A stretch of DNA of 64,000 nucleotides from Gemmatimonadota bacterium (GTDB lineage: Bacteria > Latescibacterota > UBA2968 > UBA8231). The notes below the pieces were generated by a model, which was not told the DNA's origin, did no database searches, and saw only the letters and a program-made list of their open reading frames with translations. Location of the stretch: positions 1-64,000 of the forward strand of contig VXML01000023.1 in NCBI GenBank assembly GCA_009841115.1, in the 5' to 3' direction. Of this stretch, positions 39,657 through 50,199 are shown in pieces (within the stretch, counting starts at the first letter, position 1; each line of letters opens with the position of its first letter). A program made the translations under genes and the position numbers.

Positions 39657-40808
39657 CTAAATGGCTTGTTGGAATATAATTTCGAGATCGCGTTGGGTAG
39701 TCTTGCGCGGGTTGACGGCGATGTTGCCGCTCTGCATGGCAGTGCGCGCCATGGTGGAGATGCGGGCTGTATCGACGCCGACGTCTCCTAGCTTAGCGGG
39801 GATGCCTAAGTCGGCGTTGATGTGCCGCACTGCGGCGATGGCGGCTTGCGCGGCTTGGCGTTGGTCTAAGCCGGAGATATGCGCGCCGAGTGCTTCGGCG
39901 ATGGCGGCGAATTTGTCCGGGCAAGCAAACCAATTGAACTCCATGACATAGGGTAGCAAGATGGCGTTGAGCAGCCCGTGATGCACGTGGTAGTGCGCGC
40001 CGACCGGGTGAGACATGGCGTGGACATTGCCGAGGCGCGTTTGCGAAAAGGCGACGCCGGCCAGCATACTGGCGATGAGCATATTTTCGGTGGCGGCTAG
40101 CGCGTGGTCGTTGGCGCAGGCTAGGCGCAGGTTATCGCCGATGAGGCGGATAGCGTGCAGCGCGATGCCTTCGGTGATGGGCGTGGCTGCTAAGTTGATA
40201 TAGGATTCGAGCGCGTGGGTCAGGGCGTCCATGCCAGTGGCTGCGCCGACGAGAGCGGGCAGGGCGACCGACAGGTCGGGATCGAGGACGCCGAGTTGGG
40301 GGGCGATTTTCCAGCTAATGACCGGGTCTTTGTTGCCGCTGGCGGGGTTGTCCAGCACGGCGAAGGGCGTGACTTCGCTGGCAGTGCCATAGGTCGTGGG
40401 GACGCAGGCGAGATAGGGCAGGTCGTTTGCGACTTTGTCACTGCCCAGATACTGGGTAATGCGTCCGGCATTGGACGCGAGGACGCCGATCATCTTGGCC
40501 ACGTCCATGGGCGAGCCACCGCCGAGGCCGATGATGGCGGTGCAGTGTTCTTGGCGGTAAGCCTGGATTCCATCTTCGACGGATTCTTGGGTCGGCTCAC
40601 TCGAACCGTCTTTGAGATAGACGGCATGGGGGATGTCGCCGAGGGCAGCGGTGACAGCTTCCACGGTGCCGATTTCTCCTAAGACCTGATCGGAGACGAT
40701 CAGAACTTTATCGGCCGGCGAGAAGCAATCCGCCAAGCAGGCGATAGACCCAGGACCATGGACGATGCGGGTGGGATGACGGAAGTCGAAGTGGGTTTGG
40801 AAGGGCAT
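39657..40808 (-). CDS. Iron-containing alcohol dehydrogenase
   Basis: The NAD-binding motif GGGSPMDVAK (about residue 97) and the metal-site region THALESY...AMSHPVGAHYHVHHG with the conserved histidines define the family III Fe-ADH. Length 383 is typical. It reduces or oxidises short-chain alcohols, aldehydes or hydroxy acids in the cytoplasm. First gene of the minus-strand operon ADH-LarA-methyltransferase-endonuclease-PhyH. Its start region lies in one of two direct repeats that flank the acyltransferase gene. Confidence 0.88.
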   Translation of the reverse strand: MPFQTHFDFRHPTRIVHGPGSIACLADCFSPADKVLIVSDQVLGEIGTVEAVTAALGDIPHAVYLKDGSSEPTQESVEDGIQAYRQEHCTAIIGLGGGSPMDVAKMIGVLASNAGRITQYLGSDKVANDLPYLACVPTTYGTASEVTPFAVLDNPASGNKDPVISWKIAPQLGVLDPDLSVALPALVGAATGMDALTHALESYINLAATPITEGIALHAIRLIGDNLRLACANDHALAATENMLIASMLAGVAFSQTRLGNVHAMSHPVGAHYHVHHGLLNAILLPYVMEFNWFACPDKFAAIAEALGAHISGLDQRQAAQAAIAAVRHINADLGIPAKLGDVGVDTARISTMARTAMQSGNIAVNPRKTTQRDLEIIFQQAI

Positions 40809-40874
40809 GGACGATCCTCTATGTACAAGAGGGAAAGTAGCTAGCGCTCGTCGTTGATGTCAAGGTAACTGGCG
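40795..40874. repeat. Direct repeat, copy 1 (overlaps ADH start)
   Basis: About 80 bp beginning GTTTGGAAGGGCATGGAC is repeated at 42122-42199 in the same orientation with roughly 85 percent identity, and both end near GTCAAGGTAA. It contains the ATG region of the ADH gene and its upstream leader. The acyltransferase gene lies exactly between the two copies. Confidence 0.8.
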
Positions 40875-40893: not shown

Positions 40894-42111
40894 TTAGGAT
40901 GACCCGCCGACCAAACTCTGAACCGATGTTTCAAGTTCATGGGTTATCTGTTCTACTGTTTCTCTTTTCTGAGTTCTGTAGGTATCGTAATATTCCCGGA
41001 GATCTTTCGGTTCGCCGACGCGGACGGACGCCACTCGCGGTCCACGCATTTCTGACCTGCCAAAAACTTCTCTTTCAAGACGGAGGATCACATCGAGAAA
41101 CCGCTCTGGCGACGGGTCTTCAGCAACATACCCATCGGAAATTGATATAAAATTGATCAATCGCTCCAGGTCGGGATAGAATTGCTGAAATTTCTGGAGC
41201 TGCTCTCCGTGTATTTTCTGCTCGTACTCCGTCATCTGCTCAACGTCCTTATAGATCTCGGCATCGACTATGTTTTTCAACGCACGCGTCCTTGTGAGTA
41301 TGTCGGCTTCAGTGTGGATACCCATAATCCCTTCGGCATGGGATAGGATCGCATCTTTCAGCCTTTCGATATGTACATCAAAGGACACGGTTTCGTCTAT
41401 CTCATACTGATATTCCGCGGCGAGTGTCCTGAATATCGCGACACCGATGCGACGCAATCGGTCGTAGCGTTCTACCGGCGTCTGTTCGGCAGGCGGGAGG
41501 ATATACCGTTCTAATCTCGTGAGAGCAGCATCAATAGAATTCCACATGTCGCGCGGATAGTGATATTTGATGCCGACGGGTACGGCGTAGAGCGGTTTGC
41601 TGACGTTCGCTTTTTCCATATCGTCCAACGCCCAGAAGCACATCTGGACAATGCCTCTCTCAAAGCGCATGACGGTGTCATTCTGGCGCGAAATTTCCCC
41701 TTCGCCAAAGATGACAATCGGCCAGTCGCCCTTAAACAAAAGCGCCCGCGTCGTGCGGAAGGCATCTCTATCTACAGTGCCGCGCACCACCGAGTACACG
41801 CCGCACCGCTGCATCAGATAGCATCGGATAGCTCCGAATCTACCCCTGTCGAAGGCTTCCCGAGCCGCCATGTAGTAGAACGGTTGCGATAACCGCTTTG
41901 ACAAGAGGAACATAACCATGGGGTCTTCGTGCGCCGGATGGTTAGGGGCTAAGACCGCAGAATGCCCACGTATGGCCTCCAGCCGAGCAATGGATTCTGC
42001 ATCGACATCCAGCGTTAGCCCTTTCAAATACAAGCGATTCACAAGCGGTATCAGGGCTTGTATAGTTTGAATCGCTGTCACACTCGGTTTAGGTGGCTTG
42101 AAAGCTAACAT
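40894..42111 (-). CDS. PlsC-like 1-acylglycerol-phosphate acyltransferase family protein
   Basis: The acyltransferase HX4D motif is NHPAHEDP (about residue 58) and the substrate-binding block is FGEGEIS (about residue 135), in order and spacing as in PlsC. At 405 residues it is longer than simple PlsC; the second half is helical (EMRGPRVASVRVGEPK near the end) without a known domain. It may act on phospholipid or another lipid acceptor. It is flanked by 80-bp direct repeats. Confidence 0.75.
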   Translation of the reverse strand: MLAFKPPKPSVTAIQTIQALIPLVNRLYLKGLTLDVDAESIARLEAIRGHSAVLAPNHPAHEDPMVMFLLSKRLSQPFYYMAAREAFDRGRFGAIRCYLMQRCGVYSVVRGTVDRDAFRTTRALLFKGDWPIVIFGEGEISRQNDTVMRFERGIVQMCFWALDDMEKANVSKPLYAVPVGIKYHYPRDMWNSIDAALTRLERYILPPAEQTPVERYDRLRRIGVAIFRTLAAEYQYEIDETVSFDVHIERLKDAILSHAEGIMGIHTEADILTRTRALKNIVDAEIYKDVEQMTEYEQKIHGEQLQKFQQFYPDLERLINFISISDGYVAEDPSPERFLDVILRLEREVFGRSEMRGPRVASVRVGEPKDLREYYDTYRTQKRETVEQITHELETSVQSLVGGSS

Positions 42112-42121
42112 CGCGTCCTAT

Positions 42122-42199
42122 GTTTGGAAGGGCATGGACAATCCTGAGTGCAGGAGGGAAAGTAGTTAGCGCTCGTCGCCGACGTCAAGGTAATCGGCG
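42122..42199. repeat. Direct repeat, copy 2 (left edge of the BrnT-CBASS operon)
   Basis: Matches 40795-40874. The ADH coding continuation is absent here, so this copy is a displaced leader of the ADH gene. It ends 28 bp before the promoter of the toxin/CBASS operon. Confidence 0.8.
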
Positions 42200-42227
42200 A
42201 AGGCTGGATTGGTAGCCCGAGCCTTCA

Positions 42228-42256
42228 TTGACGTAACTACGGGAATCCCGTATATT
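42228..42256 (+). promoter_or_regulatory. Sigma-70-type promoter with palindrome between -35 and -10
   Basis: TTGACG (42228-42233), a 17-bp spacer and TATATT (42251-42256) give a strong consensus-like promoter. The palindrome TACGGGAATCCCGTA (42238-42252; 7-bp arms around a central A) occupies the spacer and touches the -10 box, the ideal place for a repressor. The likely transcription start is about five bases before the toxin ATG at 42268, and no Shine-Dalgarno sequence is present, so the toxin message would be nearly leaderless. The XRE domain encoded downstream is the natural candidate repressor. Confidence 0.75.
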
Positions 42257-42267
42257 CGTCTTATCTT

Positions 42268-42537
42268 ATGGAATTCGAATGGGATGAGGACAAAGCGGCG
42301 ATCAATCTGGACAAACATGGGATTCCGTTTGAATACGCCGCGCGAGTGTTCCTCGATCCCTACCGATTAGAAGAAGAGGAGTTGATAGAATACGAAGAGG
42401 AAGTGCGCCGTCGCGTTATTGGCATGGTTGATGATCACGTATTGCTCGTAGTTTACACAGAACGTTTTCCACGAACTCGAATCATCTCTGCCCGGAGAGC
42501 AACGCGTCATGAGCGAAGAAAATACCACGAAATTTAG
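42268..42537 (+). CDS. brnT: BrnT-family toxin
   Basis: The 89 residues match BrnT: start FEWDEDKAAINLDKHGIPFEYAARVFLDP-like block at residues 3-31, central RRRVIGMVDDHVLLVVYTE, and end RIISARRATRHERRKYHE with the basic and tyrosine residues of these RelE-fold ribonucleases. BrnT toxins cut RNA and stop translation; they are neutralised by a DNA-binding antitoxin encoded directly downstream. Here the downstream gene overlaps by 29 bp and its first 135 codons are the antitoxin-like part. No Shine-Dalgarno is visible. Only the identity of the partner is unusual. Confidence 0.85.
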   Translation: MEFEWDEDKAAINLDKHGIPFEYAARVFLDPYRLEEEELIEYEEEVRRRVIGMVDDHVLLVVYTERFPRTRIISARRATRHERRKYHEI

Positions 42538-43948
42538 GTTGGACGAAAAGAACCTACCGCGTCTGAGCAAGTCCCAATCGCAACGTCTCGATTCCATGCG
42601 TGACGAGGAGATCGAGCAGGCCGCGTTGTCCGATCCGGACAATCCGCCTTTGACGGATGAGGAGCTCGCAGCATTCAGGCGCGTTCCTGACACTAAGGCG
42701 ATCCGCAAAGCCTTGCGTTTAACTCAGCACGAATTCGCCATTACGTTTCAGCTCTCTTTGGCGACAGTACGAGACTGGGAACAGGGGCGCTACCGGCCGG
42801 ATCAGGCGGCTCGTACGCTCCTGCGCGTGATCGCGCTTGATCCCAAAGCGGTCAAGCGTGTCCTAGAAGTGATACAACATCTCAACACGCAACTTAGGTC
42901 TAAAGGAGGAAAAATGGGAATCCAGACCCACTTCGACAAATTCCATGACAAGATCAAGCTTGGGCAAAAAGACGATGCCTACAAAAAGGCTCGCGAACGC
43001 GACGACAGCATTTCCGGTGATGTCAAGGATGCCTTCAAGGAAGCGGGCTATCCAGTCGTTACTGAGTTTATTCAAGGTTCGCTAGCGACCAGCACAGCCG
43101 TCGTGCCAATCGATGGGGACTATGACATTGATCGAGCTTTGGTGATCGATGCTGACTCGGCACCTGACAACCCGGTGGACCCAAAGATCGAGACGCTGGA
43201 GGTAATGGAAAGCCGAGGCTTCAAAAATGCGAAGATCAAGAAGCCCTGTGTGACAGCGGACTATACGAGCGATAGCGTCCACATCGACTTCATTATTTAC
43301 AAGAAGTCGGGCGAGCAACACTACTTGGCAGTCGGCAAGAAGAACTCCGATGAGAACAATCGAGAATGGGCGAAAGCGGACCCTCGCGGGTTGATTGACT
43401 GGATTAACGATACAAGCGGTTACGGAGAGGACGCCGACGAGATACGTGCACAATTCCGACGGTTGGTGAGGTACCTCAAGCGATGGCGTGATAGCCAGTT
43501 CAGTGAGGCCGTAGTTGCGAAGGTGTACTCGATTGGACTCACCGTGATGGCTAAGGAGCAGCTTCAATGGTCGTTCAATACCGAGGGATTTAGGCAGGAT
43601 CTGATCGCCTTAAGGTGCACGGTCTCTAGGATGCTGGATGCAACGTATTTCCGCAACGAAGAAAATGACCAGTATCGGGTCAGCGTTTTTCTGCCAAAGG
43701 AACCTTGGCGTGATATCTTCGATGGGTCGAGTCTGGATACGGGAACTCAGTTCCGCAACAAGCTGCAGCACCTAAAGGATAAGCTTATCCAGGTGGAGGA
43801 CTTGACCGACGAACGCAAGCAATGTGAGATCCTGAACAAACTATTTGGCGATGATTTTGTCGTTCCCGATCCACCGAAGAGTGAGTCGCAGACAAGCAAA
43901 GCTGTTTATTCGACGGCGGGAGTGGTAGGAACGTCTCAGGGCGGATGA
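42509..43948 (+). CDS. XRE antitoxin fused in frame to CBASS CD-NTase
   Basis: Residues 1-135 resemble the HTH antitoxins that pair with BrnT/RelE-type toxins: an acidic linker (MRDEEIEQAALSDPDNPPL), then HTH AIRKALRLTQHEFAITFQ...TVRDWEQGRYRPDQA. Residues 136-479 are a cGAS/DncV-like nucleotidyltransferase: QGSLATST (Gly190-Ser191), DYDID (Asp206, Asp208), third Asp in SVHIDF (Asp260), and YLKRWRD. Such enzymes make cyclic di- or trinucleotides on phage infection. The C-terminus ends in Gly-Gly, as expected of a Cap2 substrate. No stop separates the halves; an internal AGGAGG before Met136 suggests the CD-NTase is also made alone. It overlaps cap2 by ATGA. Confidence 0.85.
   Translation: MSEENTTKFRLDEKNLPRLSKSQSQRLDSMRDEEIEQAALSDPDNPPLTDEELAAFRRVPDTKAIRKALRLTQHEFAITFQLSLATVRDWEQGRYRPDQAARTLLRVIALDPKAVKRVLEVIQHLNTQLRSKGGKMGIQTHFDKFHDKIKLGQKDDAYKKARERDDSISGDVKDAFKEAGYPVVTEFIQGSLATSTAVVPIDGDYDIDRALVIDADSAPDNPVDPKIETLEVMESRGFKNAKIKKPCVTADYTSDSVHIDFIIYKKSGEQHYLAVGKKNSDENNREWAKADPRGLIDWINDTSGYGEDADEIRAQFRRLVRYLKRWRDSQFSEAVVAKVYSIGLTVMAKEQLQWSFNTEGFRQDLIALRCTVSRMLDATYFRNEENDQYRVSVFLPKEPWRDIFDGSSLDTGTQFRNKLQHLKDKLIQVEDLTDERKQCEILNKLFGDDFVVPDPPKSESQTSKAVYSTAGVVGTSQGG
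42903..42916 (+). promoter_or_regulatory. Internal ribosome-binding site and start for a stand-alone CD-NTase
   Basis: AAGGAGG (42903-42909) lies four bases before an in-frame ATG (42914) at the exact border between the antitoxin-like and CD-NTase parts. The following residues MGIQTHFDKFHDKI look like a native CD-NTase N-terminus. The site encodes the linker SKGGK in the fused reading frame. Confidence 0.75.
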
Positions 43949-45666
43949 ATCGAGAAGAGATCTGCAACCATCTGATAAACGCTGGCTATAAGGCTAGCCT
44001 TACAGCGGACCAAACCCTGCTGATGGTTGAGTCTAGCGCTGGTGGTCAATCGGTAACCCTTGTTCATCAATTTCCCGATGAATTGCTTGGTCCGCCGAAA
44101 TTCTGTCTTGTCGATGCGGCAAAATTTGGCAAATTGGCCCACATAATTGTTGGTCAAAATAAAGATCTCGGTCTTGTTTGCGTAGCCGAAGAAGACTCCA
44201 TCTCGGTAAACGTCGATGTTCCCGAATTGGTTTATGAGGATTGGCTCGACCGGCACATCAGGCAGCTAAGTCGGCTATTTGAGGAACCGGACTGGAACCG
44301 CCAAGAGTTGCTGCGTGAGTTTCAGACTAATTGGCGGTTCCTGTGCAAGCAATTTGGGGGAAAAGCAGGTGATATCTACGTTGCTTGGGATAAGGATTGT
44401 GTTGATTCCCTTCAGGTACGGGCACCAAAAAGTAATTCTCCTGTAAGCGTTGGGAAAAAATACTTCGCGTTGGCTGATGACTTGATCAACGGTAAGCATT
44501 TGGAAGCGGTTCGCCGAAGTGCGGATTGGTCGTCACGTACCTCAGTCGGAAAGGGAATTTTGGTCCATCTGACCAAGCTCGAACCGGCACCGAATACCGG
44601 CGGAGAACTTCTGCCATGGTATGTATCAGCAATGAATCGGATCGATGAGTCTGGCTGTCGCGCGTTAAATCGGTTGCGCAAACAGCCGGGGAAGATGTAT
44701 TGGGTAGTGTTCGTTGCGGAGATCCCAGGCAGTGTTACTTCATTTGCGATCCATTTTCGCTCGCAGAAGAAAGGCCGAATGCCGGTGTCCGAGGAAGAGG
44801 CACGGGACTGGACAATGGTTCCATACAATGTACGGTCCCTTTCACGAGATGCGTTGGTCCCACGAGGAGGAGGGTCAATCGAACTGGCTAAAAAATCGGT
44901 ACTGCTGGTGGGTTGTGGATCGGTTGGTAGCGAAGTGGCTTATCGATTGACCTCGGCTGGGATTGGAAATTTGACGATTACCGATTCCGATGTGTTTTCG
45001 GAGGACAACCTATACCGCCATACTCTTTGTGTAAAAGATATAGGCTTCTCGAAAAGCGTGGCGGTCGCTTTGGACCTGCAGTCGAAGCACCCGTGGGCGA
45101 ATGTGGTATGGCGCAAGGATCGCTTGGAAGATCTAAGAGATCCTGAGGCGCTGGAGCCGTTCGACCTCATCGTGGTTGCCATTGGTTCGCCCACCGTTGA
45201 ACGCGTATTCGCTGAATATTGCAGGGAGCATCGTATTGAGGTTCCTGTAATCAATTGCTGGGTCGAAGCATACGGCGTCGGTGGACATGCGATCTTGGAC
45301 GTTCCGGGCATGAAAGGATGCTGGCATTGTGCGTACGTGGACCCAGATACATTAGGGCGGGGATTGGCTTCCAACCTCAATTTCCTAAAGCCCAACCAGG
45401 ATCTGACGCTGACCCACGGGGGCTGTGGCATTCAATTCCTTCCATATAGCGGTATCGCGGCGGGTCTCACAGCGACGATGACCAGCGATTTATGCGTTCG
45501 TTTTTTGAAGGACGACATAAGGACATCGTCGACTGTTAGTTGGAAGGGAAGTTCGGTTGAGGCAGAAGAAAGAGGATTCAAGCTTACCTACCGGTATCGA
45601 CATTTCGTGGAACCGTTGACCGTACGTCCGCTGTACAACCAATACTGTGACTTCTGTTCTGAGTGA
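43945..45666 (+). CDS. cap2: Cap2: E2-E1 ubiquitin-transfer-like fusion of type II CBASS
   Basis: The N-terminal 150 residues have the size and position of the E2-like domain, with Cys79 (GLVCVAEED) a candidate E2 cysteine. From about residue 315 comes an E1/ThiF adenylation domain: SVLLVGCGSVGSEVAYRL, TITDSDVFSEDNLYRH and HGGCGIQFLPYSG (a candidate E1 cysteine is in the C-terminal part). Cap2 links the CD-NTase C-terminus to cellular targets and so primes nucleotide synthesis, as established for other type II systems. It overlaps the CD-NTase gene by four bases and cap3 by twenty. The length, 573, is normal for the family. Confidence 0.88.
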   Translation: MNREEICNHLINAGYKASLTADQTLLMVESSAGGQSVTLVHQFPDELLGPPKFCLVDAAKFGKLAHIIVGQNKDLGLVCVAEEDSISVNVDVPELVYEDWLDRHIRQLSRLFEEPDWNRQELLREFQTNWRFLCKQFGGKAGDIYVAWDKDCVDSLQVRAPKSNSPVSVGKKYFALADDLINGKHLEAVRRSADWSSRTSVGKGILVHLTKLEPAPNTGGELLPWYVSAMNRIDESGCRALNRLRKQPGKMYWVVFVAEIPGSVTSFAIHFRSQKKGRMPVSEEEARDWTMVPYNVRSLSRDALVPRGGGSIELAKKSVLLVGCGSVGSEVAYRLTSAGIGNLTITDSDVFSEDNLYRHTLCVKDIGFSKSVAVALDLQSKHPWANVVWRKDRLEDLRDPEALEPFDLIVVAIGSPTVERVFAEYCREHRIEVPVINCWVEAYGVGGHAILDVPGMKGCWHCAYVDPDTLGRGLASNLNFLKPNQDLTLTHGGCGIQFLPYSGIAAGLTATMTSDLCVRFLKDDIRTSSTVSWKGSSVEAEERGFKLTYRYRHFVEPLTVRPLYNQYCDFCSE

Positions 45667-46144
45667 TCGCGTCCTATACTTTGCCGAGTATCGACGGCGG
45701 GTGTGTGTCTGTGATAGGGTCACCGACATTTGGCAGGCCCATCGTCAGGTAGAAAGAAGGGCCGCTGAGTCGTTTGGTGTTTTGGTTGGAACCACGTCTG
45801 TTGATAGGCGTGAACTATGGATTGAAGCCGTGACAACGCCGATGGCGCTGGATCGGCGGTCTCGACTCCATTTCGAACTTCGAGACCCGGGACATCAGCA
45901 GTTTGTGGATCAAGCATTTGCCCGATCCTGTGGATCGCAGATTTATCTTGGCACATGGCACACTCACCCGCAGCCGAGGCCTATGCCATCGTCTGTTGAC
46001 GAAAGTGATTGGCAGCAGTGTTTGCGGCGCAACAGAAACCGGCCGCTAGTGTTTGTGATTGTCGGTATTGAAGTAGTACGGGTTTTCGTACGCTGGGGAA
46101 ACAGTTTCAGATTCTTGGAGGTGGAATTTAGTGATGTCGTCTGA
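45647..46144 (+). CDS. cap3: Cap3: JAB/JAMM isopeptidase of type II CBASS
   Basis: The metalloprotease signature is complete: Glu in AAESFGVLVG, then WHTHPQPRPMPSSVDESDW with the His-x-His, Ser and Asp zinc ligands. Cap3 removes CD-NTase from its conjugates and counteracts Cap2. The GTG at 45647 starts inside cap2 (20-bp overlap) and the gene ends inside cap5 (11-bp overlap), typical of translational coupling. Length 165 is normal. Confidence 0.88.
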   Translation: MTSVLSDRVLYFAEYRRRVCVCDRVTDIWQAHRQVERRAAESFGVLVGTTSVDRRELWIEAVTTPMALDRRSRLHFELRDPGHQQFVDQAFARSCGSQIYLGTWHTHPQPRPMPSSVDESDWQQCLRRNRNRPLVFVIVGIEVVRVFVRWGNSFRFLEVEFSDVV

Positions 46145-47771
46145 TCGCGAGAGAGATACCGTCCTGCAAACGAGGTTGGTACCGATGGTTTCGTTGGATG
46201 AAGTTAGGGACCACGCGGAGGCTGTTCGACGCCTTGTGAAGTGGGAAGCCATCGGAGTCCTGTTAGATGAAGGGCCTGGGGCAATTGTAGTAGTGCTGTT
46301 GGAGGATACAAGGGTGGTTGGGGCGTTGCGTTTTTGCCTCTCAAGTGCAGAGAGCGTGAAGGCTATCCAAGCTTATGGCCGAGACTCGGATTTAACGGAG
46401 ATGCGCTGTTGGCAGGGGCATACGATGTCTGACGAGCAGCTCGTGGACCTAGATAAGCTTACGGCTATTTGGCAGGAGTCGTCCGACCAAGCGTCTTCCC
46501 TAGACACGCAAGAGGTGGAGGATTTCTTTAACCAGATCGAAACGGGGACTCGGAAGAGAGGGCGTGGTGCGGATATGACCGTGGAAACACGTAACCAGGT
46601 TTTGTTCGATGCACATGGTCGCTGCATGTTCGAAGGGTGCGGCACCGCCCTCACCGTAGATCCATTGACAGGCCAGCGCGGTAATTTCGCATACTTGGCG
46701 CATAATGTAGCGTCGTCTGAAGGGGGCGCACGAGGTGTCCCTTATCTTTCCGACCGGCTATCTAATCGTCCCGACAACATTTTGTTGCTCTGTGACACCC
46801 ATCATCGAATCATTGACACGGTGGCTAAGGCGGACTACCCAGCCGAGAGGCTGTCGGCAATGCGACAGCGCTTCTGTCGCGATGTTGAAAGGTTGTTGGA
46901 CGGTTTGTCAAGGCCCCCGGTCCCGGCCTTCTGCGTAGCTTGGCCCGTTCATCAGCAGACGATCTCCGTACCGTCGGAGCTACAGATCGCCCAGGCGTTG
47001 ACTCCCATTGGTGTACGACTAGATGGACAGCCGAATGTGCTGAGTGATAACGAAACTGTATTGAGATCGGCGGAAGCGGACACGGATAACTTCTGGGAGT
47101 TGATGAGGTCAACCGTTGAACATGTGGCCGAACAGATTCTGAGGCAAAGCCACGTTAAGGCGTATCGAGCTGCCTTGTTCGCAATGGGGCTAATGCCTTC
47201 GTTGATCGCCTTGGGGGCGAAGCTTGGAAACAAGTGCGAGATTACACCTATTCTACGGTCCCGAAAGCATGGTCTTTGGTACTGGCCAGCGAACCAACCT
47301 CGAGGTGAATTCTTTGGTATAGAAGGTCTAGAGGATCTCTCGAACAGCGAACATGAGGTTTGTTTGAAGTTGGCCCTGACCGCATCTCCGGAGATAATGG
47401 ATGCCACTGCCGAAGCACTCGGTTATAGAGTTGTGTCAGTAGTCGCAAATAAGGATGTGATAGGTAATGAGGCATTAGGGCACCCTGATGATGGCAATCT
47501 CTTCCGACAACGGATGCAGGAGCTTCTACACAAGCTCGGGGATAATCACGGGGTTGAGCGCATTCACCTACTCCCGTGCGCATCAAACGCGGCTTGCGTT
47601 TTCTTTGGACAGGCATTTGACAGCCATCATCCGGAATTGATGATCTACGACTTCGACCCTGCAAAAGGGCCCATGGTGGCGAGGTTGCGAGTTCGAAACA
47701 TTGACAATCGGTGCTCGGTTGACGCAAACGTCGATTCGAATAGCGGACCAAGGGGTGAAATGCCTCGCTGA
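46134..47771 (+). CDS. cap5: Cap5-like HNH-SAVED nuclease with an extra N-terminal domain
   Basis: GGAGG stands about 12 nt before the ATG at 46134; a GTG directly before it is also possible. Numbering here is from that GTG. Residues about 1-145 form an unrecognised alpha/beta domain. Residues 155-255 are an HNH nuclease: Cys165 and Cys170 (GRCMFEGC), His191 (YLAHN) and NILLLCDTHHRIID. From about 275 to 535 is a SAVED domain (ALFAMGLMPSLIALGAKLG, YRVVSVVANKDVIG, IHLLPCASNAACVFFGQ). In Cap5, cyclic nucleotide binding to SAVED assembles the protein and activates DNA degradation by HNH. Known Cap5 proteins, as I recall, are near 400 residues, so the extra domain is notable. Last gene of the operon. 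Confidence 0.85.
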   Translation: MSSDRERDTVLQTRLVPMVSLDEVRDHAEAVRRLVKWEAIGVLLDEGPGAIVVVLLEDTRVVGALRFCLSSAESVKAIQAYGRDSDLTEMRCWQGHTMSDEQLVDLDKLTAIWQESSDQASSLDTQEVEDFFNQIETGTRKRGRGADMTVETRNQVLFDAHGRCMFEGCGTALTVDPLTGQRGNFAYLAHNVASSEGGARGVPYLSDRLSNRPDNILLLCDTHHRIIDTVAKADYPAERLSAMRQRFCRDVERLLDGLSRPPVPAFCVAWPVHQQTISVPSELQIAQALTPIGVRLDGQPNVLSDNETVLRSAEADTDNFWELMRSTVEHVAEQILRQSHVKAYRAALFAMGLMPSLIALGAKLGNKCEITPILRSRKHGLWYWPANQPRGEFFGIEGLEDLSNSEHEVCLKLALTASPEIMDATAEALGYRVVSVVANKDVIGNEALGHPDDGNLFRQRMQELLHKLGDNHGVERIHLLPCASNAACVFFGQAFDSHHPELMIYDFDPAKGPMVARLRVRNIDNRCSVDANVDSNSGPRGEMPR

Positions 47772-47836
47772 TTGATAGATGACGGCTTCGACCGGCACCA
47801 TTATACCACAGCTCCCATGGTCATCGTCTGCCGGGG

Positions 47837-48337
47837 TTAGAGTTGCAATTCTCGTTGATGCTCGCGAATATGGCTTCGTGGCGGCGGCAGAGAACCAATT
47901 ATCCCGTTGGGCTTGAAGCCCTTGCGGGCATATAGGGCGATGGCCGGCTGGTTATGGTCGCCGACATCCAAGAACACCCGCCGAGCGCCACTGATCCGCG
48001 CCCACTCAACGACGGCGTCAATGAGTGCTTCCCCCACGCCTTGTCCTCTGACCTTCGGGGACGCCCACATCGAAATCAGCCAAGCGGCGTCAGGTTGCAA
48101 GTCATCGCGCGCGCCCCGCACTAGGCCTACGTCCTCTCCATCCACGACCGCTACGAAGGTGGCGATTTCTTGGAGTTGTGCCGTCCAACTGTCCAGCGGT
48201 TGTCCAGCGGCCTCGTCATAGGTGGTACCAAAGGCGTCAGGCGCATCGGCCAGGGCCCGCAACCGGATCGTGCGCAGACGCAGCTCCTCGTCGGCCGCAA
48301 GGCGTTCAATGTTAATTGGGGTCTCTCGAGATGTCAT
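47837..48337 (-). CDS. GNAT-family N-acetyltransferase
   Basis: A compact 166-residue GNAT fold: ATFVAVVDGEDVGLVRG strand pair, acetyl-CoA loop SPKVRGQGVGEALIDAV, and ARRVFLDVGDHNQPAIALYARKGF (motif B). The ATG at 48337 is chosen because the frame upstream is a shadow of the neighbouring oxygenase gene. It acetylates an amine on a small molecule or protein; substrate unknown. Confidence 0.85.
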   Translation of the reverse strand: MTSRETPINIERLAADEELRLRTIRLRALADAPDAFGTTYDEAAGQPLDSWTAQLQEIATFVAVVDGEDVGLVRGARDDLQPDAAWLISMWASPKVRGQGVGEALIDAVVEWARISGARRVFLDVGDHNQPAIALYARKGFKPNGIIGSLPPPRSHIREHQRELQL

Positions 48338-48404
48338 CCTAAAGCGCCTCTCCCTCACCGCGTTTCCGATCTCGGCAACAACCGCCGAGCTGTCCACGCG
48401 GGCA

Positions 48405-49250
48405 CTATTCCCGTCTGGCGGCCTCTTCCATAACGCGCTGGTCGTCCTGAGCCCACTGATGCCAGCGCGCTTCGTCGGGCTGTTGGAAACCGCTGTTGGC
48501 GCGGCTCTGCAAGTGTTCGTCCTGACCCAACAGGCGCAGGGCCCGATGGTCCTGCTGGCTTCGGGCCCAATTGATGAGCTGTTGGCAGTTGGGGCCGGTG
48601 AACGTATCCGTGTGTTTGAGCCAGGAGATGTTGTAGTACACACTGAAGAAGTAGCGCTTGCGTCCCGAGGTATTGGGCGTCCCCGAGTGCAGCAGGCCAT
48701 TGTGGGTCAAAACCACGTCGCCAGCTTTCATGTAGATCAATAGCTCGTCTTGGTGCGGCTTGCGGATCTCGTCCTCGGCTAGGGCGATGGGTTCGACGTG
48801 AGAACCGGGCAGCACCCTGAGCGGTCCGTACTTGTCGTCCAGATCCTGTAGATAGCAGATGGCATTGAAGGCCAGAGGGCGTTCGTACGCGCCGTTGGGC
48901 ATGCGACCCCAGCGGTCTCGGTGCCAAGCACTGACCTTGCCGGCGGCTTCTTCCGGATCCATGGAGGGAAAGGCGGCTAAGGTGAGGTTGTCGAGCTGCA
49001 CGAAAGGCCCCACCACCTGCTCGGCAAAGTCGAGAATGATTGGATGAGCCACTGCTGGCCACATCAGTTGCGGCGCTCGTTCGAGCATATTGCCGAACCA
49101 ATGGGTCCGTTCTTGCACATGGGGCCCTTCTGTGGAGAGGGCTTGTAGGCGATCCTGCTCGTCGCGCCAAGCCTGCATAGTGGTTTCGTCGTACAGCCCC
49201 TCGAATACGGTATAACCCTGAGCGCGGTATTCTTCCATTCTGTGGTCCAT
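48405..49250 (-). CDS. Phytanoyl-CoA dioxygenase-family protein
   Basis: Canonical non-haem Fe/2OG features are visible: SAWHRDRWG (HxD), VLPGSHVEP, GDVVLTHNGLLHSGTPN with the distal His, and Arg in GRKRYFFSVYY for 2OG binding. At 281 residues it fits the bacterial PhyH subfamily that hydroxylates small metabolites. The start at 49250 (MDHRMEEYRAQGY) is selected because the longer frame runs through the kelch gene upstream; the two genes are 7 bp apart, so probably co-transcribed. Confidence 0.85.
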   Translation of the reverse strand: MDHRMEEYRAQGYTVFEGLYDETTMQAWRDEQDRLQALSTEGPHVQERTHWFGNMLERAPQLMWPAVAHPIILDFAEQVVGPFVQLDNLTLAAFPSMDPEEAAGKVSAWHRDRWGRMPNGAYERPLAFNAICYLQDLDDKYGPLRVLPGSHVEPIALAEDEIRKPHQDELLIYMKAGDVVLTHNGLLHSGTPNTSGRKRYFFSVYYNISWLKHTDTFTGPNCQQLINWARSQQDHRALRLLGQDEHLQSRANSGFQQPDEARWHQWAQDDQRVMEEAARRE

Positions 49251-49257
49251 AAGACAC

Positions 49258-50199
49258 CTATTCCCTGCGCGAAAGCCTCCAAGCATCCGGCTCCATATTA
49301 TTCCCGGCCACCATCCACAGCGACCCATCGTACACAAACACGCTCCCGGCATGGCGGGGTGCCCAAGGGGTGTCGGGCAATTCGGTCCAGTCCACGCCAT
49401 CGGGTGAATACCACACATCGCGGCGATTGCCGCTCTCTGCCGCGTAGCCTTCTAACACCCATAGATGGTCATCGAACGCGGCCACCTCGTGGTATTGTCT
49501 GGGCGTCCACGAGGCGTGCGCTGTGTGCTGTTTCCAGTTAATCCCATCGTCCGAACTCCATACGTCGTTGTAGAAATTGCGCATGGGAGTTGCAGGCGTA
49601 TCGTAGGTGCCTCCACCCAGAATCCACATCCTGTTGTCGTGCACAGCGGCTCCGCCGATCATCCCTCTGGGCACCCACGGAGCGTTCTCGGTAACTTGGG
49701 TCCAGTTTACTCCATCGTCCGAACTCCACACGTCGTTGTGGAAGACCTCGTCGGCGTCGGCAAAATTGGGAATGGTCTGTCCGCCCATAACCCAGATCCG
49801 ACCGTCGAAGGCCAAGGTATAATGGAGTACTCGGGGTGCCCATGGCACGTGAGCATTGGCTAGATCCCAATGAATGCCGTCCGCACTGCTCCAGACATCG
49901 TTTTGATAATGGCCTTGGTTGCAATCGCCGCCCACGATCCACATCCGGTCGTTGTGCACCACATATCCGGCCGTATGCCTTCCTTCCCAGGGCGCTTGGG
50001 GATTCTCAAGCGTCCAGGCGGCACCATCGGTCGACGACCAGACCTCACTGTTGCAGATCAGCGGGAAATGGACTTTATCGCCGGGATTCCAGCCGCCGAG
50101 CAGCCACATTTTATTCTGGAACACCAATGCGCCAGCGCCATCGCGAGCCGCGAAGGCCGCGTTCTCCGTGACGCAGTGCCATTCGTATTTTGCGCTCAT
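49258..50199 (-). CDS. Kelch-like beta-propeller protein
   Basis: About five to six kelch-like blades are visible through repeats of DVWSSDDGVNW, APWVPRGMIGGAAVHDNRMWILGG and related motifs. No signal peptide is seen from the ATG at 50199. Kelch propellers bind proteins or carbohydrates. It lies just upstream of a PhyH gene on the same strand. Not assignable to a pathway. Confidence 0.75.
   Translation of the reverse strand: MSAKYEWHCVTENAAFAARDGAGALVFQNKMWLLGGWNPGDKVHFPLICNSEVWSSTDGAAWTLENPQAPWEGRHTAGYVVHNDRMWIVGGDCNQGHYQNDVWSSADGIHWDLANAHVPWAPRVLHYTLAFDGRIWVMGGQTIPNFADADEVFHNDVWSSDDGVNWTQVTENAPWVPRGMIGGAAVHDNRMWILGGGTYDTPATPMRNFYNDVWSSDDGINWKQHTAHASWTPRQYHEVAAFDDHLWVLEGYAAESGNRRDVWYSPDGVDWTELPDTPWAPRHAGSVFVYDGSLWMVAGNNMEPDAWRLSRRE

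Follow-up and report, generated by a model that had tools for sequence, protein, structure and literature searches.

A type II CBASS operon whose CD-NTase shares one open reading frame with the helix-turn-helix antitoxin of a BrnT module

Comparison with described systems

Type II cyclic oligonucleotide-based antiphage signalling systems (CBASS) and BrnT toxin-antitoxin modules are the described systems closest to the locus analyzed here, in which an antitoxin and a cGAS/DncV-like nucleotidyltransferase (CD-NTase), the signalling enzyme of CBASS, are encoded by one open reading frame. The locus occupies positions 42,268 to 47,771 of a 64,000-nucleotide stretch (the window; contig VXML01000023.1, positions 1 to 64,000 of the forward strand) of assembly GCA_009841115.1, a Gemmatimonadota bacterium placed by GTDB in the Latescibacterota (UBA2968; UBA8231). 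Along the forward strand it consists of brnT, a 479-codon frame that combines a helix-turn-helix (HTH) antitoxin with a CD-NTase, Cap2, Cap3 and an HNH-SAVED Cap5, each gene overlapping the preceding one. We propose, with modest confidence, that a type II CBASS has come to stand at the 3' end of a BrnT/HTH operon with an antitoxin-repressed toxin promoter, and that the joined frame yields two products, i.e., the fusion and a free cyclase.

The likeness to type II CBASS extends to all four genes in their order, their overlapping ends and their key motifs. The unfused CBASS relatives L011-L013 share this gene order and have a Cap5 that is approximately 61% identical; what sets the window apart is the in-frame antitoxin at the N-terminus of its CD-NTase. 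With BrnT modules that use an HTH antitoxin the locus shares the toxin-first order, the overlapping genes and the type of antitoxin. No ribbon-helix-helix antitoxin BrnA was found at the locus, where the partner gene encodes an HTH protein; the module is best classed as a BrnT-HTH pair, not as BrnTA. Fusions of BrnT to its antitoxin are reported, two of 33 with an HTH in place of the ribbon-helix-helix domain (PMC11980606), and the protein P0238 is such a single BrnT-HTH chain. In the window, by contrast, the fusion partner of the antitoxin is a signalling enzyme and not its toxin.

Transcription regulators of CBASS are described as well, namely CapH/CapP, CapW and CapK/CapS (PMC13373217). They resemble the present case in that a DNA-binding repressor is encoded at the promoter side of an immune operon, but each is a protein of its own and linked to the sensing of DNA damage, whereas the antitoxin of the window shares one frame with the cyclase. 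A scan of eight proteins between 40,894 and 49,418 showed neither an M78 peptidase nor another sensor partner. In VapKSC, as the same source reports, a CapS-like immune regulator acts as the antitoxin of the VapC RNase; this three-gene operon differs in being devoid of a CBASS enzyme (PMC13373217).

Two loci in other genomes of the class, L126 (G026:C46, 4401-8466) and L128 (G028:C22, 2993-7251), have a CD-NTase beside a patatin gene, the latter tested with Pfam in L128 and recognized by eye in L126. Both also contain a CapH/CapP-like pair of XRE protein and M78 peptidase together with an unfused HTH antitoxin gene, and L128 a RelE-type toxin. They are defence islands with toxin-antitoxin neighbours.

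The fused frame and its occurrence

The gene brnT (42,268-42,537, forward strand as are all genes of the locus) encodes a ribonuclease-type toxin of 89 amino acids and overlaps by 29 bp with the single frame of 479 codons at 42,509-43,948. Within this frame, codons 1-123 (42,509-42,877) make up the HTH antitoxin part, codons 124-135 (42,878-42,913) a linker of 12 codons, and codons 136-479 (42,914-43,948) a CdnB-like CD-NTase that measures 344 amino acids alone. Stop codons close two of the three frames at the junction, one by TGA at 42,870 and the other by TAG at 42,895 and TAA at 42,901, both of which lie in the linker; the HTH frame is the sole open one. Downstream follow Cap2 (E1-E2, 43,945-45,666; Pfam and PADLOC matches), Cap3 (a JAB isopeptidase with a JAMM-like motif and domain matches, 45,647-46,144, GTG start) and Cap5 (an HNH-SAVED effector by its domain matches, 46,131-47,771, GTG start). 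Re-reading confirmed the gene coordinates, the 29-bp overlap, the 479-codon frame and the order of the Cap genes of a preliminary description of this DNA. Its assignment of codons 1-135 to the antitoxin was right in placing an HTH at the N-terminus and a complete CD-NTase from codon 136 onward, but the antitoxin comprises codons 1-123 and is followed by the linker.

The join is well-illustrated by a public protein, P0001, that likewise counts 479 amino acids and is 92% identical to the fused protein over 479/479 residues, without gaps and with the same junction sequence. It derives from a 49-kb public contig and its cluster represents 24 member sequences. The in-frame fusion on which the preliminary description was built is thus real, being common to two divergent sequences, and no stop or frameshift interrupts the relative near the junction. 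One might suspect that assembly or sequencing joined two genes artificially, as the window's genome consists of 112 contigs with 7.6% estimated contamination. The public contig of P0001 carries an identical junction, which speaks strongly against a sequencing error, and we regard an artefact of either kind as very unlikely.

Further fusions were sought at several levels. Residues 1-150 were compared with proteins of 263-838 amino acids (1282 candidates) by a search that detects only relatives sharing exact five-residue words, and one protein was returned, P0001. With the HTH alone, 161 small proteins were found (best 120 listed), and 15 of the 27 closest are 122 amino acids long. Among the best 120 of 753 CD-NTase homologues, one is extended at its N-terminus by seven residues and five by at least 34; homologues beyond these 120 were covered only via exact words shared with residues 1-150. 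P0001 is the only one of the five with an HTH match. The other four (P0018, P0093, P0101 and P0106, with 34-107 extra N-terminal residues) were considered as HTH-CD-NTase fusions and rejected, since none of them gave an HTH match at E 0.1.

We located 19 CD-NTase places in the 64 phylum genomes searched, spread over 12 of them. The open frame before the GS motif counts 208 codons in the window versus 47-116 in the other 18 places, the prefixes of which were judged by length and not by domain scan. The window's genome contains a second, different CD-NTase (G000:C50:7381-7800, L116) without a comparable N-terminal extension. Neither BrnT nor an HTH of the window's type was found beside 21 related CBASS loci of named genomes, for which approximately 1.3 to 6 kb of upstream DNA was covered; no relative was found among viral contigs, and 208 plasmid records match, none with a single place covering 80% of the query. 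According to the preliminary description such a fusion is not known to have been described, and the count of homologous loci now leaves P0001 as the only other one found, with a comparable extension in none of the 18 other places of the phylum. The titles and abstracts of the literature searched, largely without subscription papers and bioRxiv, mention no antitoxin-CD-NTase fusion. As far as these searches reach, the gene architecture is new, while its component parts are known.

Toxin, antitoxin, enzyme and expression signals

Key motifs are present in BrnT, CD-NTase, Cap2, Cap3 and Cap5. BrnT matches PF04365 over its full length (77/77 positions, E 2e-24) and carries a lysine at position 16 and a histidine at position 17, as read from its sequence. 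K16, H17 and R72 are named as contributing to the toxicity of Brucella BrnT (PMC13284704); the former two were equated by residue number and by a KHG stretch common to 7vd7, not by alignment to 3U97. In the antitoxin part, residues 30-117 match 2ppx by sequence (E 7e-26) and the modelled HTH fold superimposes on the same structure with a template modelling (TM) score of 0.92 by target, at 1.0 Å over 60 residues; the HigA2 antitoxin was also matched. Pfam HTH models stay under their cut-off for the window's fused protein, and HTH_3 is above cut-off for P0001. The linker sequence is absent from all 30 C-termini of HTH proteins compared.

Within the genus, for which eleven genomes were compared with the window's own included, the HTH gene follows brnT with an overlap in four genomes. 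The ratio of nonsynonymous to synonymous substitution rates (dN/dS) between the window and G007, G009 and G010 is 0.15-0.19 for the HTH and 0.18-0.38 for BrnT. The remaining HTH matches in the window's genome, which is 94.6% complete, reach 38-47% identity over 60-66 residues, and no closer antitoxin came to light there.

The best PADLOC model for the CD-NTase starts at residue 136 (E 2.4e-114). Residues S191, D204, D206 and D260, which we take to be the serine and aspartates of the active site, are invariant across 61 aligned CD-NTases; the active site appears intact and activity is predicted. A structural model of the fusion based on 61 alignment rows has a mean predicted local distance difference test score (pLDDT) of 73.4, with blocks from residue 141 to 450 at 75-97, and its CD-NTase core finds its best structural matches in CdnB enzymes (8ysd, TM 0.82 by target). 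Only two of the 61 rows cover the HTH, and most of the first 135 residues score less than 60 in pLDDT, for which reason a helix drawn at 112-131 was not relied on. In an earlier model the MAFFT alignment had mixed HTH-only and CD-NTase-only rows and laid CD-NTase over HTH columns; it was not used for the enzyme, and its HTH part served solely for the 60-residue match to 2ppx. The C-terminal tail of the fusion is modelled as disordered. In type II CBASS, Cap2 uses the C-terminal end of the CD-NTase. This end is GG in both fused sequences and A in 114 of the best 120 of 753 homologues. By their domains, the E1-E2 protein Cap2 and the JAB protein Cap3 are those expected of a type II CBASS. Cap5 is covered by the PADLOC SAVED-HNH effector model over residues 7-530 and matches SAVED (PF18145), with no Pfam match for its HNH domain; an effector with a cyclic-nucleotide-sensing domain is thus present, and its gating is predicted.

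A scan of 42,100-44,000 revealed a single promoter-like site, a sigma-70-like TTGACG-N17-TATATT upstream of brnT (42,228-42,256, forward strand; 10/12 consensus matches). The brnT start codon is situated 11 bp past the -10 box and has no predicted Shine-Dalgarno pairing; the transcript likely has a very short leader or none. The spacer between both boxes contains a perfect palindrome, TACGGGAATCCCGTA (42,238-42,252), the probable operator of the HTH antitoxin. It occurs once in the window versus 0.15 copies expected (two mismatches allowed), and in five of the eleven genus genomes, one copy each, with none in the other six. In 4/4 genomes that have brnT-HTH at this site the palindrome lies at the brnT promoter. 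The fifth copy, in G003 (G003:C1, L101, approximately 1859-1990), precedes a degenerate BrnT end and the beginning of an HTH, to all appearance a decayed brnT/HTH module. In G007, G009 and G010 the palindrome and the -10 box are preserved at an unchanged spacing of 17 bp, with a -35 box that is off by one or two bases and an ATG 6 bp past the -10 box, and it is this position and conservation of the promoter that weigh more than its score. Together this is good evidence for TACGGGAATCCCGTA as a probable operator of the brnT-HTH module, to which binding is predicted. Because a perfect palindrome sits in the promoter spacer and is specific to the module in the eleven genomes, the HTH likely represses the whole operon. 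The preliminary description, in which the palindrome was absent, had raised such repression by the fused HTH; that TACGGGAATCCCGTA occurs in the eleven genomes only at the module or a remnant of it supports this idea. As the shared toxin-antitoxin DNA stops just 50 bp or so ahead of where the CD-NTase begins, the cassette would have supplied little space for its own promoter.

The CD-NTase has retained its own start, also absent from the preliminary description. ATG 42,914 stands behind a near-perfect Shine-Dalgarno site, AAAGGAGG (42,902-42,909), with a predicted pairing of -11.6 kcal/mol that is matched or exceeded at 0.22% of the 1805 ATGs in the window; ahead of the CD-NTase start of the 21 related CBASS loci the predicted pairing ranges from -3.9 to -11.1. 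Moreover, 114 of the best 120 of 753 homologues begin exactly at this internal methionine. One frame is thus very likely to give two proteins, the joined one and a free cyclase. The earlier picture of one fused enzyme is accordingly weakened by this strong start site, although the fusion in frame stands.

The same start site leads to an alternative that is possible, if on the doubtful side: the cassette landed in frame by accident, CBASS operates via the free cyclase only, and the fusion is a read-through by-product, perhaps still active as antitoxin, so that both systems have no more than a promoter in common. The internal ribosome site AAAGGAGG, the homologues starting at the internal methionine, the occurrence of the fusion in one lineage only and an open frame obtainable by chance alone are all in line with such an accident. 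Against it, P0001 has kept the junction without gaps, and with the frame open, each translated antitoxin bears a cyclase unless it is processed.

Origin and possible working of the locus

The DNA of this CBASS cassette was found only in the window's own genome among the eleven of the genus; the interval absent from the others spans approximately 42,861-47,798 (left edge from G007 and G010, right edge from G002). The left flank, brnT and the HTH gene recur in G007 and G010 with a DNA identity of about 93%; there the antitoxin ends at codon 122, cassette DNA is missing, and the next shared DNA is a right-hand neighbour. In G009, brnT is open while an in-frame stop interrupts the antitoxin copy (L031, G009:C522:1-312), the contig ending inside the HTH. 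G004 and G005 have an HTH stretch that is 70-74% identical, without brnT or palindrome. G001 and G003 run directly from window position 42,115 to 48,397, with neither module at the site, and G002 runs from 42,229 to 47,799. These comparisons put the cassette, with approximate edges, where the antitoxin gene ends. Mobile-element ends and target duplications were looked for around the cassette and only short imperfect repeats were seen at its edges; a mobile-element insertion mechanism is not claimed. Base composition is not informative on a foreign origin, as the CBASS genes (51-54% guanine plus cytosine) overlap in range with seven neighbours (51-62%).

In a tree of 31 HTH proteins, the window's HTH falls together with a stand-alone antitoxin that is 90% identical to it, P0121, and P0001 branches just beyond them (98/87 and 98/77, bootstrap not settled); by plain identity, the nearest to the window's HTH is that of G010 (93%). 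The tail of P0121 resembles the out-of-frame reading just before TAG 42,895, a hint that this tail is native to the toxin-antitoxin locus, which concerns four residues only and was not used.

The sequences themselves show one uninterrupted frame, a junction that is conserved, sites in relatives that lack CBASS, a palindrome in the promoter, a strong ribosome site inside the frame and the key motifs. From these we model a BrnT/HTH operon with CBASS at its end as follows. The cassette would have been inserted into or just behind the last codons of the antitoxin, which thereby lost its stop. The fused 479-residue protein would now serve as BrnT antitoxin and as operon repressor, a role proposed because the genome search turned up no closer antitoxin. 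The free 344-residue cyclase, and perhaps the fusion too, would work with Cap2 and Cap3 as in ordinary type II CBASS, and upon infection the cyclase would switch on the Cap5 nuclease. Such coupling would make loss of the locus costly and bring the dose of CBASS under toxin-antitoxin control.

The preliminary description went further and suggested a second killing arm, with BrnT released when the fusion is degraded, inhibited by a virus or conjugated by Cap2. BrnT indeed retains K16 and H17 (residues according to PMC13284704), the close antitoxin is found only within the fused protein, and CapK/CapS and VapKSC offer a precedent of immune regulators and toxin-antitoxin loci with common parts (PMC13373217). 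Yet, inhibitors would be taken up by free cyclase produced alongside the fusion, leaving BrnT untouched, and relatives keep BrnT-HTH without CBASS; we consider this model decidedly unlikely. A related guard circuit strikes us as unlikely as well: here one protein would be RNase antitoxin, operon repressor and alarm enzyme, phage attack on the cyclase would derepress the operon and free BrnT, and the internal start would supply free cyclase.

Several points weigh against our model of a CBASS governed by the toxin-antitoxin promoter. Residues 58-117 match the MqsA family model (E 3.5e-9) and NadS (E 9e-9) under the curated cut-offs of both, the low dN/dS of BrnT and HTH may mostly stem from divergence predating the fusion, and the fused tail could weaken the binding of BrnT or of DNA. 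Shuffles of the scanned region are expected to contain 1.3 promoter-like sites of equal quality, and the brnT/HTH remnants in G001 and G007 are without a perfect copy of TACGGGAATCCCGTA. The stop in the antitoxin copy of G009 indicates that this BrnT may not always need a full antitoxin, or that the module can decay. By our estimate, about one insertion in six would happen to leave the frame open, so the origin of the fusion needs no selection, and a linker common to two sequences is weak evidence of function. Since P0121 groups with the window's HTH and the fused P0001 lies outside, the fusion may have arisen repeatedly or have been lost or exchanged; either it is old and was lost once or it was exchanged, which would speak against a permanently locked system. 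The idea of a widespread designed system is weakened by the same grouping, by the restriction to one lineage and by relatives with the antitoxin alone.

The locus is a natural physical join of a toxin-antitoxin module and the alarm enzyme of CBASS, and the CBASS-free relatives show its likely prior state. If the fused protein works, one insertion can suffice for a newly acquired immune operon to take over a ready self-repressed promoter and to become addictive. It also offers a compact system for asking whether antitoxins guard immune enzymes.

The surroundings, from the acyltransferase gene to a kelch-like gene (42,115-49,258), form a variable site at which toxin-antitoxin, CBASS, GNAT and PhyH genes vary across the genus. 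A repeat of approximately 80 bp, 84% alike, occurs at 40,795-40,874 upstream of an alcohol-dehydrogenase-like gene and at 42,122-42,199 beside the acyltransferase gene, and could serve recombination at this site.

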